Source of the DNA: Agromyces sp. H66
GTDB lineage: Bacteria > Actinomycetota > Actinomycetes > Actinomycetales > Microbacteriaceae
DNA: 64,000 bases
Reading direction: 5' to 3'
NCBI RefSeq assembly: GCF_004959775.1
Contig: NZ_SJZG01000003.1
Coordinates: 310,001 to 374,000, forward strand
The notes below the pieces were generated by a model. It was not told the origin of the DNA, searched no databases, and saw only the letters and a program-made list of their open reading frames with translations. A program made the position numbers and the translations under genes. How positions within the stretch are numbered: the first letter of the stretch is position 1; each line of letters begins with the position of its first letter. Of this stretch, positions 26,463-54,170 are shown one piece after another.

Positions 26463-27755
26463 CTATGACGAATGTCCTCGGGCGCCGGCGTCGCGCGCGG
26501 CGCGCGCCCGCCTCGAGAGCAGCGCCCGCTCACGCGCGTTCGACGTCATGGCGGCGGCGCGCTCGAATTCGCCCGCGGCCTCCTCGCCGCGTCCGAGCCG
26601 CTCGTAGAGGTCGCCGCGCACGCTCGGCACGAGGTGGTACCCGCGGAGGGCGGGAAGGTCGGCGAGTTGGTCGAGCAGCGCGAGCCCCGCTTCGGGTCCA
26701 TTCGCCCGGCCGAGCGCGACGGCGCGGTTCAGCTCGACGACGGGCGATCCCGTGCGGCGTCCGAGCCGTTCGTAGAGTGCGGCGATGCGCGCCCAATCGG
26801 TGTCGTCGACGGATGTCGCACGCGCATGCTCCGCGGCGATCGATGCCTGCAGGACGTTCGGACCAGGCTCGGCGTCCGGCCCGTCGGCGGCCACGAGCGC
26901 GTCGGCGCGGGCGAGGAGCTCGAGGCCGCGGCGGATGCGCGTGGCATCCCACCGCTCGCGGTCCTGGGCGTCGAGCAGGATGGGTTCGCCGTCGGCGTCC
27001 GCTCGGGCGGCGAGACGCGACGACTGCAGTTCCATGAGCGCGGCCAGTCCCAGCACCTCGGGGTCGCCGGGCACGAGCGCCGTGAGGATGCGGCCGAGGC
27101 GCACCGCCTCGTCGCAGAGCGCCGGGCGCGTCCAGTCCTCGCCCTCGGTCGCCGAGTACCCCTCGTTGAAGAGCAGGTACACGACGCCGAGCACCGTCCC
27201 GAGCCGCTCGGCACGCTCGTCGCCGCTCGGCTCCTCGATCGCGGCGCCGGCCTCGGCGAGCGTGCGCTTGGCGCGCGACACCCGTTGCGCCACGGTGGCC
27301 TCGGGCGCGAGGTAGGCGCGGGCGATCTCCCGCGTCGAGAGCCCCGCGACGAGCTTCAGCGTGAGCGTCGTCTGCGCCTCGGGCGTGAGCGCCGGGTGGC
27401 AGCAGATGAACATGAGGCGCAGCACGTCGTCCTCGACGTGGTCGATCCCGGCGGTCGGATCCTCGTCGACGGACTCGGCGAGGTCGTGCGCGAGCCGGGC
27501 CGCCGCCTGGTCGTGCCGGGCGCGGGCACGGAACACGTCGATGGCGCGACGCTTCGCGGTGGTCATCAGCCACGCGCCGGGATTGTCGGGGATGCCGGTC
27601 GCCGGCCAGGCGGCGAGCGCGGCGACGATCGCGTCCTGCGCGACGTCCTCGGCGAGCGCGACGTCTCGCACGATGCGCACGAGCGCGGCGATCAGGCGCG
27701 TGGACTCGAGCCGCCAGACCGCCTCGATCGCGGCGCGCGTCGTCTCGTCACCCAC
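26463..27755 (-). CDS. ECF42-type RNA polymerase sigma factor
   Basis: A 430-residue sigma factor of the ECF42 kind. Region 2 spans about 10-80 (VALAEDVAQDAIVAALAAWP and NPGAWLMTTAKRRAIDVFR), region 4 about 120-175 (LTLKLVAGLSTREIARAYLA), then a long C-terminal extension with TPR-like repeats and the stretch LLFNEGYSATEGEDW, typical of the group. ECF42 factors have no classical anti-sigma; the extension is thought to control them. GTG 27755 is 42 bases after the YCII gene stop, the standard genetic partner. Its likely own promoter is at 28210-28238. Confidence 0.93.
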   Translation of the reverse strand: MGDETTRAAIEAVWRLESTRLIAALVRIVRDVALAEDVAQDAIVAALAAWPATGIPDNPGAWLMTTAKRRAIDVFRARARHDQAAARLAHDLAESVDEDPTAGIDHVEDDVLRLMFICCHPALTPEAQTTLTLKLVAGLSTREIARAYLAPEATVAQRVSRAKRTLAEAGAAIEEPSGDERAERLGTVLGVVYLLFNEGYSATEGEDWTRPALCDEAVRLGRILTALVPGDPEVLGLAALMELQSSRLAARADADGEPILLDAQDRERWDATRIRRGLELLARADALVAADGPDAEPGPNVLQASIAAEHARATSVDDTDWARIAALYERLGRRTGSPVVELNRAVALGRANGPEAGLALLDQLADLPALRGYHLVPSVRGDLYERLGRGEEAAGEFERAAAMTSNARERALLSRRARAARDAGARGHSS

Positions 27756-27797: not shown

Positions 27798-28157
27798 TCA
27801 GTACTCCGCGATCTGCCGGATCTCGACGCTGCCCTCCCAGCCGGGCCAGTGGTCGACGTGGATCTGCATGAGGCGGCGGCCGAGCTCGACGGCCTCCTCG
27901 CGGGAATGCACGTCGACGACGGCGTACCCGCCGACGAGCTCCTTGGCCTCGGCGAACGGCCCATCGGTGGCCTTGATCCGTCCGTCGGCGAGCGAGACGA
28001 TCGCCCCGGCCGCGCTCGGCAGCAGCCCCTGGCTGTCGATGAGGGTACCGTTCACGCGGCCCTCCCGGTCGTACTCGGCCATCGCCTGGTAGAGCTCGGG
28101 CGGCGGATCGCCCTGCGGGTTCGTCTCGTCCATCTTCACCATGCACAGGAATCGCAT
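27798..28157 (-). CDS. YCII/DGPF-domain protein
   Basis: A 119-residue YCII-related protein with the DGPF signature in full: ATDGPFAEAKELVGGYAVVD (about residues 61-80), preceded by RFLCMVKMDE and followed by IHVDHWPGWEGSVEIRQ. DGPF proteins accompany ECF42 sigma factors; their biochemical role is not settled. ATG 28157 with GGAGTGGAG upstream is chosen over the longer open frame, which runs into the promoter region. It is cotranscribed with the sigma gene. Confidence 0.92.
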   Translation of the reverse strand: MRFLCMVKMDETNPQGDPPPELYQAMAEYDREGRVNGTLIDSQGLLPSAAGAIVSLADGRIKATDGPFAEAKELVGGYAVVDVHSREEAVELGRRLMQIHVDHWPGWEGSVEIRQIAEY

Positions 28158-28209
28158 CGCGCTCCACTCCTTCGATCTCGGCACGCCCCGTCGGCGTGCC
28201 CTCACGATA

Positions 28210-28238
28210 GCGACGGCGGCTCGACCGGCTTCTCGACA
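28210..28238 (-). promoter_or_regulatory. ECF42-type promoter of the YCII/sigma operon
   Basis: On the reverse strand TGTCGAGAA starts at 28238, with 17 bases between TGTCGA (28238-28233) and CGTCGC (28215-28210). This matches the ECF42 consensus as I recall it: TGTCGA at -35 and CGA/TC at -10. It implies autoregulation. Confidence 0.75.
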
Positions 28239-28267
28239 CGGCCTCGAGAGATTTTCCTCCGGCGCCA

Positions 28268-28296
28268 TGTCGAGAACGGATGCCTCGGGGCGACGT
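28268..28296 (+). promoter_or_regulatory. ECF42-type promoter of the DUF998 gene
   Basis: TGTCGA at 28268-28273, 17 bases, then CGACGTC at 28291-28297. The -35 and three following bases (TGTCGAGAA) are identical to those of the divergent promoter. It lies 57-85 bp before ATG 28353, so the divergent membrane gene is a probable member of the same regulon. Confidence 0.72.
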
Positions 28297-28352
28297 CTTG
28301 GTGAACGACCCGATCACCACCGACGGGACGACAGCCTGAAAGGAACCCCATC

Positions 28353-29045
28353 ATGAACATCGACACCACCGGTCGGAGCACCGCGCCGAGCGTCGACGAC
28401 CGCAGGGTCGCGCACGCGACGGACCCGATGACCCGCACCCTCGTCACCGCGGGCGCCGTCGCCGGGCCCCTCTTCGTCGTCGTGGCGCTCGTGCAGGTCT
28501 TCACCCGCGAGGGATTCGACCTGACGCGGCATCCGCTCAGCCTGCTCTCGCTCGGCGATCTCGGCTGGGTGCAGATCACGAACTTCATCGTCGCGGGCGT
28601 GCTGATGCTCGCGTTCGCCGTCGGCACGCGGCGAAGCCTCGGTGCGGGGCCCGCACGCCGTTGGGCACCGATCCTGTTCGCGGTGTACGGCATCGGGCTC
28701 GTCCTCGGCGGTGCGTTCACCGCCGATCCCGCCCTCGGATTCCCCCTTGGCACGCCCGACGGCTACCCGACCGAGTGGACGTTCCACGGCACGGTGCACG
28801 CGTTCGCACCGCCGCTCGCGTTCCTCGCACTCGTTGCGGTGACCTTCGTCGTGGCACGCCGACTGACGTGGGAGGGCCACCGCGGGTACGCCGTCTGGTC
28901 GCGCGTCATCGGCATCACCTGCCTCGTCCTGTGCATGCCGTTCGGTCCGGGCGCGAGCGTGCGGCTCTTCGTCGGCGTCGCGCTCGGCTTCGCGTGGATC
29001 ACCGCCTACGCGATCTCGCTGCTCCGCACCCGCGCCGGGGCGTGA
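28353..29045 (+). CDS. DUF998 membrane protein
   Basis: A 230-residue protein with six hydrophobic helices and the DUF998 pattern, including REGFDLTRHPLSLLSLGDLG in the first loop and a WTFHGTVHAF segment before helix 4. Function unknown. ATG 28353 follows AAAGGAACCCCATC. It is read divergently from the YCII/sigma operon and carries the same ECF42-like promoter element. That is the only functional lead. It converges with the TetR gene, whose stop lies two bases beyond. Confidence 0.85.
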   Translation: MNIDTTGRSTAPSVDDRRVAHATDPMTRTLVTAGAVAGPLFVVVALVQVFTREGFDLTRHPLSLLSLGDLGWVQITNFIVAGVLMLAFAVGTRRSLGAGPARRWAPILFAVYGIGLVLGGAFTADPALGFPLGTPDGYPTEWTFHGTVHAFAPPLAFLALVAVTFVVARRLTWEGHRGYAVWSRVIGITCLVLCMPFGPGASVRLFVGVALGFAWITAYAISLLRTRAGA

Positions 29046-29046
29046 C

Positions 29047-29667
29047 TCACCAGGGCTCGTCGGCCGCGGGCAGGAGGCCTCGCACGCGGTCGCCCGCGCC
29101 GGGGAGGCACGAGTCGAGCATCTCGGTCACCGCCGCCTCGGTGCCGTAGGCGCCCACGAGTCGGAGACCCACGATTGCATTGATGAGCATGCCGTTCGCC
29201 ATGAAGTCGCGGGTCTCCTGCTCGCTGAACTCGGCCTCGTCCCGCACGAAGCGCCAGACGGAGTTGAAGCCCGCCCTGGCGACGGGGCCGAGTTCGGGAT
29301 CGCCGCCGAGGGCGGTGGAGTTGGCGATGACCGGCAGCATGCCGCGTTCCTCGAGCAGCGCGGCATAGGCGGTCGCCATCCGGTCCCGGCGGCCCTCGGG
29401 CGGACCCGGCAGGGCCCGCCGGAAATCCTCGATGATGCGGGCGTACGCACGCTCGATCACCGCCGTGTAGAGCTTCGCCTTCGTGCCGAAGAGTCGCACG
29501 ACGTAGGGCTGGCTCACGCCGGCGGCGCGGGCGACCTCGTCGGTCGTGGTGCCGACGTAGCTCTTCGCGCCGAACACGGCGGTCGCCGCCGCCAGGATGA
29601 GCTCTCGCCGGTCGGCGGCCTTCATCCTCGGGGCGGTTCGGGTCTCGTCGACGCTCATGCTTGACAT
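29047..29667 (-). CDS. TetR-family transcriptional regulator
   Basis: A 206-residue regulator with an N-terminal TetR helix-turn-helix (about residues 17-63: ELILAAATAVFGAKSYVGTT then EVARAAGVSQPYVVRLFGTK) and a helical ligand domain. ATG 29667 and ATG 29658 are both usable. The gene is divergent from the MFS exporter gene with 57 bp between starts, holding a 22-bp dyad. It probably represses itself and the exporter, releasing on binding a drug-like ligand. Confidence 0.92.
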   Translation of the reverse strand: MSSMSVDETRTAPRMKAADRRELILAAATAVFGAKSYVGTTTDEVARAAGVSQPYVVRLFGTKAKLYTAVIERAYARIIEDFRRALPGPPEGRRDRMATAYAALLEERGMLPVIANSTALGGDPELGPVARAGFNSVWRFVRDEAEFSEQETRDFMANGMLINAIVGLRLVGAYGTEAAVTEMLDSCLPGAGDRVRGLLPAADEPW

Positions 29668-29677
29668 GTTATCAGTC

Positions 29678-29699
29678 GATTACTACTCTCCAAGTAATC
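29678..29699. promoter_or_regulatory. TetR operator between tetR and the MFS gene
   Basis: Perfect 7-bp arms GATTACT (29678-29684) and AGTAATC (29693-29699) with an 8-base spacer. It sits in an AT-rich island between two divergent starts. TTGACA at 29661-29666 could be the exporter -35 element, with the operator over its -10 region. Confidence 0.75.
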
Positions 29700-29724
29700 A
29701 TTCAATAACAACAAGGAGTTCTCC

Positions 29725-31215
29725 GTGTCAGCCACCGCCCTCGAAGCCGCCGACCAGGCGCGTACCCTGAGGCCGAGCCCGATGTGGCTCGTGCTCCTTG
29801 CCACGGCGCTCCCGATGTTCATGGCGAATCTCGACAACCTCGTCATGACGAATGCACTGCCGGTGCTCCATGCCGAGTTCGGGGCATCCGTCGAAGAGCT
29901 GCAGTGGTTCATGAACGCGTACACCCTCGCCTTCGCCTCGACGATCCTCATGGCCGTGGCCCTCGGCGACCGGTTCGGCCGGCGAACCGTCTTCGTCATC
30001 GGCATCCTGGTGTTCACCCTGAGCTCCGCGCTCGCCGCCCTTGCGACCGATCCCGGCCAGTTGATCGCCGCCCGTGCCGCACAGGGATTCGGTGCCGCCG
30101 CGATCATGCCGCTCTCGCTCACCCTGCTCGCCGGCGCCGTGCCGATCGCGCGCCGACCACTCGCGATCGGCATCTGGGGCGGCGTGGCGGGCCTCGGCGT
30201 GGCGACGGGGCCGCTCATCGGCGGCGCCGTGATCGAGGGATGGACGTGGCAGGCGATCTTCTGGCTCAACGTGCCGATCGGCGTCGTGTCCGTCGCGATC
30301 GCCCTGCTCGCCCTGCCGAACAGCTTCGGCGCACGCCTCCGGGCCGACGTCGTGGGACTCGCGCTCTCCGGTCTCGGGCTCCTCGGCCTCGTCTACGGCA
30401 TCGTGCAGGGGAACGACGCGGGCTGGAACAGCCCCGAGGTGCTCGGCAGCCTCCTCGGCGGTGCGGCCCTGCTCCTCGCGTTCACGGCTTGGGAGGCGCG
30501 TGCCGCCGCACCGCTCCTGCCGCTGCGGCTCTTCCGTGATCGCAGCTTCTCCGTCGCGAACCTCGCGGGATTCGGCTTCGCCTTCGGCTCGTTCGGTGCG
30601 ATCTTCATCCTCATCCAGTTCCTGCAGGTCGTGCACGGCGCATCGCCCCTCGAGGCCGCCTGGCAGACCTCCCCCTGGACGCTCGCGCCGATGGTCGTCG
30701 CGCCGCTCGCCGGAGCCCTCGCGGCTCGGCTCGGGACTCGCACCCTGATCGTGGCGGGGCTCGGCGCCCTCGCCGTCGCGCTGTTCTGGCTGTCGCAACT
30801 GCTCGACGCGGGCATCGCGTACTCCGCCTACGTCGCGCCGTTCATCCTGGCCGGCGTCGGTATGGGGCTGGTGTTCGCCCCGTCGGCGACCGCCGTGCTC
30901 GCCACCATGGCACCCGACGACCACGCGAAGGCCAGCGGCACCAACTCGATGCTCCGCGAGGTCGGCGTCGCCCTCGGCATCGCCGTGTCGACCGCCGTGT
31001 TCACCGGTGCGGGCGGAGCGCTCACGCCCGTCGACTACACCGTCGGCGCCCAGCCTGCCGTGCTCGTCGGCTCGGCGGCCCTGCTGGCATCGGCGCTCGT
31101 CGCGCTGCTGCTGCCCTCGGGTCGCGGGGTGGTGCGGGCCGCGAAGCCGGCAGGCGTCGCGAGCGACGAGCCCGAGGCATCCGCTCCCGCCCTTCCGGTC
31201 GGTATCGGCGCGTGA
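29725..31215 (+). CDS. MFS drug exporter, DHA2 (EmrB/QacA) family
   Basis: A 496-residue transporter with about 14 transmembrane helices. Motif A is present as LGDRFGRRTVFVIG (about residues 83-96), and motif C in helix 5 as GVATGPLIGGAVIEGWTWQ. LDNLVMTNALPVL is the usual helix-1 motif D1. It should export a drug or metabolite using the proton gradient. GTG 29725 follows AAGGAG. Control by the adjacent TetR protein is likely. Confidence 0.93.
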   Translation: MSATALEAADQARTLRPSPMWLVLLATALPMFMANLDNLVMTNALPVLHAEFGASVEELQWFMNAYTLAFASTILMAVALGDRFGRRTVFVIGILVFTLSSALAALATDPGQLIAARAAQGFGAAAIMPLSLTLLAGAVPIARRPLAIGIWGGVAGLGVATGPLIGGAVIEGWTWQAIFWLNVPIGVVSVAIALLALPNSFGARLRADVVGLALSGLGLLGLVYGIVQGNDAGWNSPEVLGSLLGGAALLLAFTAWEARAAAPLLPLRLFRDRSFSVANLAGFGFAFGSFGAIFILIQFLQVVHGASPLEAAWQTSPWTLAPMVVAPLAGALAARLGTRTLIVAGLGALAVALFWLSQLLDAGIAYSAYVAPFILAGVGMGLVFAPSATAVLATMAPDDHAKASGTNSMLREVGVALGIAVSTAVFTGAGGALTPVDYTVGAQPAVLVGSAALLASALVALLLPSGRGVVRAAKPAGVASDEPEASAPALPVGIGA

Positions 31216-53891: not shown

Positions 53892-54170
53892 ATGCGAACG
53901 ATCACGTCCCGCGATCTCAAGCAGAACCCGAGCGAGGTGTACCGACGCGTGCTCGAAAGCGGCGAAGAGCACGTCATCACGTCGCACGGCAAGAGCGTCG
54001 GCGTGAAGCTCGTGCCCGATCACCCCGGTCCGCAGCGATGGGTCCCTGCCGCGACGTTGCGCGCCGGGCTCGCCAGGCTTCCGCACGAGAACGTGGAGGA
54101 GTTCCTGCGCGATCTCGAGGCGCTCCGCGACGCTGAACCGCTCCGCGACCCGTGGGACGACGCCGAATGA
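53892..54170 (+). CDS. Phd/YefM-type antitoxin
   Basis: A 92-residue antitoxin: TITSRDLKQNPSEVYRRVLE (about residues 3-22) and HVITSHGKSVGVKLVP (about 27-42) are the Phd/YefM DNA-binding and dimer core. The acidic C-terminus (ALRDAEPLRDPWDDAE) would occupy the toxin's active site. It overlaps the toxin gene by ATGA and is preceded by a perfect operator, so it likely represses its own operon, more tightly with toxin bound. Confidence 0.92.
   Translation: MRTITSRDLKQNPSEVYRRVLESGEEHVITSHGKSVGVKLVPDHPGPQRWVPAATLRAGLARLPHENVEEFLRDLEALRDAEPLRDPWDDAE

Follow-up and report, generated by a model that had tools for sequence, protein, structure and literature searches.

A conserved pair of divergent ECF42-type promoters is predicted to link a YCII-sigma factor operon with a DUF998 membrane protein gene in Agromyces sp. 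H66

The intergenic region at 28158-28352 of the window (the whole stretch of Agromyces sp. H66 DNA analysed here, 64 kb in length) holds what is, judged by comparison, a genuine and conserved pair of divergent ECF42-type promoters. That both sites are conserved together with their spacing, and that one of them is absent from a genome with a broken DUF998 gene, strongly suggests that the neighbouring sigma factor switches on both itself and a DUF998 membrane protein. In the reading that we favor, to which we give a probability of about 0.86, the ECF42-YCII module reads both promoters, is autoregulated and also drives the DUF998 protein. RNA polymerase with the ECF42 sigma (26463-27755) would recognise both sites, one promoter transcribing the YCII and sigma genes in positive autoregulation and the other transcribing the DUF998 membrane protein; in the window's genome the strict regulon would consist of these two units, and DUF998 would be an output, presumably an envelope-facing protein produced whenever the sigma is active. 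The features of the locus are as follows.

26463..27755, minus strand: ECF42-type sigma factor, 430 aa, GTG start, with Sigma70_r2, Sigma70_r4_2 and PF20239 domains and a long C-terminal extension
27798..28157, minus strand: YCII protein (PF03795 by Pfam, DGPF motif), ATG at 28157
28202..28238, minus strand: predicted promoter of the YCII-ECF42 operon, conserved in 16 of 16 orthologous loci; -35 TGTCGAGAA at 28230-28238, -10 CGTC at 28212-28215, and GTGA at 28202-28205 at the predicted start region
28268..28304, plus strand: predicted promoter of the DUF998 gene, conserved in 15 of 15 intact orthologous loci; -35 TGTCGAGAA at 28268-28276, -10 CGAC at 28291-28294, and a conserved GTGA at 28301-28304
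28353..29045, plus strand: DUF998 (PF06197) membrane protein, 230 aa (Pfam score 119.7 bits, cut-off 30)

The preliminary description of this DNA had noted TGTCGA followed at 17 bp by CGTC or CGAC on both strands, and a scan of the window bears this out, with TGTCGA-N17-CGWC matches at 28212-28238 (-) and 28268-28294 (+), each beginning with TGTCGAGAA. A longer motif, TGTCGAGAA-N14-CGWCG-N5-GTGA, is common to the two strands and exact at both sites, and we regard the region as a probable bidirectional ECF42 promoter region with two separate promoters of this one type. The ECF42-type identity given to the operon likewise holds, as sigma-70 regions 2 and 4, PF20239 and the adjacent YCII were all found. 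In the 430-aa sigma, Pfam places Sigma70_r2 at residues 20-80, Sigma70_r4_2 at 115-166 and PF20239 at 184-284, with no match for region 3; about 260 residues follow region 4, and TPR matches in the extension, which is TPR-rich in the ECF42 group, are sub-threshold only (TPR_2, E 0.016 at 380-403; TPR_7, E 0.097). Regions 2 and 4 without region 3, an extension of the approximately 200-residue type, an adjacent YCII gene and the promoter type are all features of the ECF42 group.

The ECF42 sigmas Sven_0747 of S. venezuelae, ECF-10 of P. putida and RpoE10 of S. meliloti also have a long C-terminal extension and YCII directly upstream, and known ECF42 promoters likewise have a TGTCG-type -35, a CGTC or CGAC -10 and a 17-bp spacer; the consensus in S. 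venezuelae is reportedly a TGTCG -35 and a CGWC -10 with a 17-bp spacer. The window differs from these systems in that a divergent DUF998 membrane gene carries the same promoter type. The motif, which the preliminary description had matched to the ECF42 consensus, agrees in spacing and start position with the mapped starts of S. meliloti RpoE10, which in the excerpts of PMC6180224 used here give TGTCGG-N17-CGTC. The start of the SMc01149 promoter is printed there 9 bases after the -10, and if the same distance applies in the window, transcription on both sides would begin inside the GTGA. Those excerpts do not mention DUF998; the RpoE10 targets that they name are glyoxalase-like, hydrophobic-ligand-binding-like and unknown proteins. 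Overexpression of RpoE10 did not raise its own YCII-rpoE10 operon, so that autoregulation is not universal among ECF42 systems (PMC6180224).

The loose core alone is weak evidence, because TGTCGA-N17-CGWC occurs three times in the window (expected 1.23; three or more in 11 of 100 shuffles) and the third match, at 54156 (-), lies within a coding-like reading frame. The extended motif has two exact sites in the 64-kb window, where 0.33 are expected at up to three mismatches and at least two occur in 6 of 100 shuffles, and there is no third site within three mismatches anywhere in the window. Across the whole 4.23-Mb genome, TGTCGAGA-N15-CGWC-N6-GTGA has two exact matches, seven with two mismatches and two with one; both exact sites are the window pair, which is in keeping with the small regulon first proposed. 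The genome scan that had been recommended, with TGTCGA-N17-CG[AT]C, does not discriminate: its 35 matches are fewer than the approximately 81 extrapolated from the window shuffles, 17 of the 30 given as loci lie inside a coding-like frame by a rough base-composition test, and a plausible gene start lies downstream in seven of the 30, two of these being the window pair. We therefore rejected the loose core as a definition of the regulon. Controls with patterns read backwards were set aside as poor because reversal alters CpG content.

Strong support for the motif pair comes from its conservation. Sixteen of 60 congeneric genomes have an ortholog of the sigma (69-100% identity, the next best listed being 59%), and a DUF998 gene adjoins it in all 16, at 49-100% identity in 15 and in two pieces in one (G010); there is no DUF998 match above 45% identity in the other genomes of the 60. 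The YCII-side promoter, with TGTCGAGAA, a spacer of 17 and CGWC, is present in 16 of 16 genomes, and its GTGA is found in all 15 full rows and, by a separate pattern scan, in G058. On the DUF998 side, TGTCGAGA, the spacer of 17, CGWC and GTGA are present in 15 of 15 intact loci, with a single A-to-T change at base 9. The spacing of 17 is constant in all 31 sites, and in an alignment of 15 intergenic regions the invariant columns concentrate in the -35, the -10 and the GTGA. Conservation of both sites in the orthologs thus supports the arrangement that had been proposed, of two divergent promoters with the YCII-ECF42 operon one way and the DUF998 membrane gene the other. We also note, by eye, a loosely conserved AT-rich patch (approximately GANATTYC) between the -35 elements, at 28239-28267 and in the corresponding segments of several Agromyces loci.

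It could be argued that the YCII-ECF42 side alone is a working promoter, the DUF998 side being conserved for other reasons and DUF998 being expressed independently, as some DUF998 genes have no ECF42 neighbour and most of these do not carry the motif upstream. We consider this most improbable, since the DUF998 side is as well conserved as the YCII side and its site is missing where the DUF998 gene is broken. The G010 assembly lacks the DUF998-side element and part of the DUF998 gene, with the YCII side intact; this loss could be an assembly error.

The inverted pair of TGTCGAGAA copies might also be seen as one operator, bound by a dimeric or tetrameric regulator common to both genes, rather than as two promoters. 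The copies form the longest perfect inverted repeat, of 9-19 bp, in 13 of the 16 orthologous regions, and GACAGGGAA-N8-TTCCCTGTC, with its fixed spacing and operator-like look, lies at the centre of 11 of 19 non-Agromyces divergent loci. However, the gap between the two TGTCGAGAA copies in Agromyces ranges from 25 to 43 bp, while each copy stays exactly 17 from its own CGWC and at a fixed distance from its GTGA, so that the elements behave as two promoters and not as one operator; moreover, collinear operons have one copy, with the same spacing, 5' of DUF998. A single operator thus seems very unlikely to us. The loci with GACAGGGAA-N8-TTCCCTGTC in the longest inverted repeat are L137, L140, L150, L156, L157, L160, L163, L164, L167, L170 and L174, and the two promoters in each of those 11 regions would either have -35 elements that almost touch or make use of a common operator. 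The longest exact repeat is reached by no more than 5 of 200 shuffles in 10 of the 16 Agromyces regions (in G016 through a different repeat), and is unremarkable in the window, where 23 of 200 shuffles reach its 9 bp, and in G003 (33), G015 (40) and G010 (176); outside Agromyces, the inverted repeats of L127, L135 and L177 are not above shuffles. By a 36-mer mirror statistic the window, G010, L132, L135, L137 and L140, among the loci listed, are not above shuffles.

The favored reading, with two promoters served by the window's own sigma, must also be set beside the related systems in the same genome, which contains five PF20239 sigma genes and six YCII matches and in which the window is C23:310001-374000. 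The YCII genes of the other four PF20239 sigmas have variants of the core motif upstream:

C6: TGTCGA-N17-CGTC, with TGTCGAGAA
C4: CGTCGA-N17-CGAC
C23, at 174 kb: TGTCGA-N18-CGAC-N6-GTGA
C12: TGTCGG-N17-CGTA-N6-GTGA

A GTGA at the same distance is common to two of these four promoters, and TGTCGAGAA is found in one. With the core and in part the GTGA common to the paralogs, only the combined extended bases, or expression, can separate one sigma's sites from another's, and with five ECF42 genes associated with variants of one core we can only infer that the window sigma, rather than a paralog, reads the sites; the sole apparent tie between them is the extended motif, which occurs together with the orthologous sigma. 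Cross-reading of the window promoters by paralogous sigmas is possible, and the five sigma genes, the TGTCGA-like -35 and CGWC-like -10 of the paralog YCII genes and the TGTCGAGAA of the one on contig C6 would all fit a shared network in which these are real ECF42-type promoters that chiefly serve one or several of the paralogs. This seems unlikely, as the exact strict motif is absent from the 29 genomes without an orthologous sigma listed among G001-G039, and the base combination after TGTCGA and after CGWC in the window is unlike that of the paralog promoters. The strict motif describes one ECF42 subgroup, against which the targets of paralogs can be told apart.

When the pattern is relaxed a little, by dropping the G after CGWC, the 16 sigma-holding genomes have 34 exact sites, 31 at the locus and three elsewhere, which allows for a larger regulon in some species; two of the three, in G007 and G039, lie 5' of another YCII-ECF42 pair, and the third, in G037, lies 5' of a DUF1905 gene. 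Sites with one mismatch are found in G031 before a gene similar to the G037 DUF1905 gene, and in G010 before a RibD_C gene. Two further sites were seen in the window's genome. At a contig end (G000:C6:1-550, L047) a short YCII-like gene, preceded by an ECF42-type promoter of its own, TGTCGAAACC...CGTC, lies beside another YCII-ECF42 operon, and at G000:C5:15954-15980 (L008) TGTCGATCCGG...GTTCGAC resembles the paralog promoter at C23:174 kb; it lies about 109 bp before a gene that by eye resembles an MFS transporter, a possible membrane target of another ECF42.

That DUF998 is a co-regulated partner, as the preliminary description had predicted, is strongly supported by comparisons reaching well beyond the window. 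Among named genomes 331 stretches encode a DUF998 relative, and in the best 80 of these 331, which we analysed, ECF42 is in the flanks of 39 loci (24 divergent, 11 ordered DUF998-YCII-ECF42 and four otherwise). The query profile came from 20 sequences of the genus, of which 19 are ECF42-linked, so this fraction applies to close relatives. DUF998 is present in 57 of 296 genomes drawn class-wide, a sample that may share species with the named genomes; of 27 loci given from other genera, 16 have YCII and ECF42 within 1.5 kb (seven divergent, nine collinear), and the 11 with neither within that distance count against our interpretation. Within the genus, a hand count places at least 20 of the 43 DUF998 genes next to ECF42, against 0.6 expected by a simple estimate that ignores relatedness.

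The promoter motif accompanies this linkage. TGTCGA-N17-CG lies 5' of DUF998 in 15 of 19 collinear DUF998-YCII-ECF42 loci (0.15 expected) and in 2 of 48 control DUF998 loci without adjacent ECF42 (0.55 expected); the pattern was chosen after inspection of 13 of the 19 collinear regions, and five of the six uninspected regions match it. An earlier scan outside Agromyces that required CGWC found little. The controls exclude L129, L154, L167 and L169 (YCII adjacent) and L279 (contig end) and retain L176 (ECF42 about 3.2 kb downstream) and L130, L131 and L139 (YCII near); the collinear set excludes L192 (contig end), and L138, L145 and L155, with other arrangements, belong to neither. A-rich stretches, possibly UP-like, were noted by eye directly 5' of TGTCGA at several collinear loci in other actinobacteria.

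The motif varies among lineages, and the two sides tend to stay alike as the sequence changes, as would be expected of two promoters read by one sigma; this joint change was judged by eye. In L071-L074, TGTCAA-N17-CGAGG is mirrored on both sides, towards the divergent gene, and in L127 TGTCGA-N17-TGAC is on both sides. TTCCCT-N15/16-CGAC occurs on both sides in L253, L254, L265 and L267 and on one side in L274 among the seven class-sample divergent loci, and is absent from the other two, L258 and L260. The loci L071-L074 (G035, G019, G046 and G057) show a second gene order in Agromyces, in which DUF998-YCII-ECF42 is accompanied by a divergent gene of about 160 aa; a DUF1579-like identity first considered for this gene was dropped, as Pfam gave no match for the single copy tested (L071).

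The DUF998 protein has five to six hydrophobic helices by hydropathy and belongs to PF06197. Columns conserved at 90% or more in 52 sequences fall in predicted helices 1-4 and 6 and in loops 1-2 and 3-4, and include R52, G54, F55, D56, H60, S63, D125, P126, G129, F130, P131 and H149; no column reaches this level in the two arginine-rich, predicted cytoplasmic loops (coverage of the tails is thin, with residues 1-24 in 8-38 of 52 rows and 223-230 in at most 41, falling to 4). From hydropathy and the positive-inside rule the conserved loops probably face outside. The autoregulated sigma operon linked to a membrane protein resembles the canonical pairing of an ECF sigma with a membrane anti-sigma, but DUF998 differs from such an anti-sigma in having its conservation in the predicted outside loops and none at 90% or above in the predicted cytoplasmic ones, which would lower the odds of a classical anti-sigma role and raise those of an envelope-facing enzyme, a transporter part or a sensor. 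No sequence relative was found among solved structures at E 0.1.

DUF998 and 'sigma factor' co-occur in one paper, on milk vesicles and gut bacteria (PMC12716043). Among the titles and abstract openings found, none links DUF998 to ECF42, and the large ECF reclassification or the S. venezuelae and P. putida papers may tabulate such a link. The term DUF998 has no occurrence in the main texts of PMC8999054, PMC6180224, PMC8103513 and PMC7730460, and the 2022 review, in the excerpts used here, describes the partner of the ECF42 extension as yet to be identified and points to YCII alone (PMC8999054). A recurrent, class-wide membrane companion that carries the sigma-type motif where it is linked is thus a concrete candidate for an ECF42 output or envelope input. 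A bolder and rather doubtful extension of this idea is that a three-part ECF42 module has its missing envelope component in DUF998, which would work through its outside loops (R/GFD/H and DPxxGFPxGxPxG) with YCII and the long-tailed sigma. The sigma would then build its own sensor or feedback partner from a self-mirroring bidirectional promoter, whose halves changed together by lineage (TGTCGAGAA/CGWC, TGTCGA/TGAC, TGTCAA/CGAG and TTCCCT/CGAC). Beside the DUF998 gene, at 29047-31215, a TetR-family regulator gene is divergent to an EmrB-type MFS efflux gene, an ordinary arrangement.
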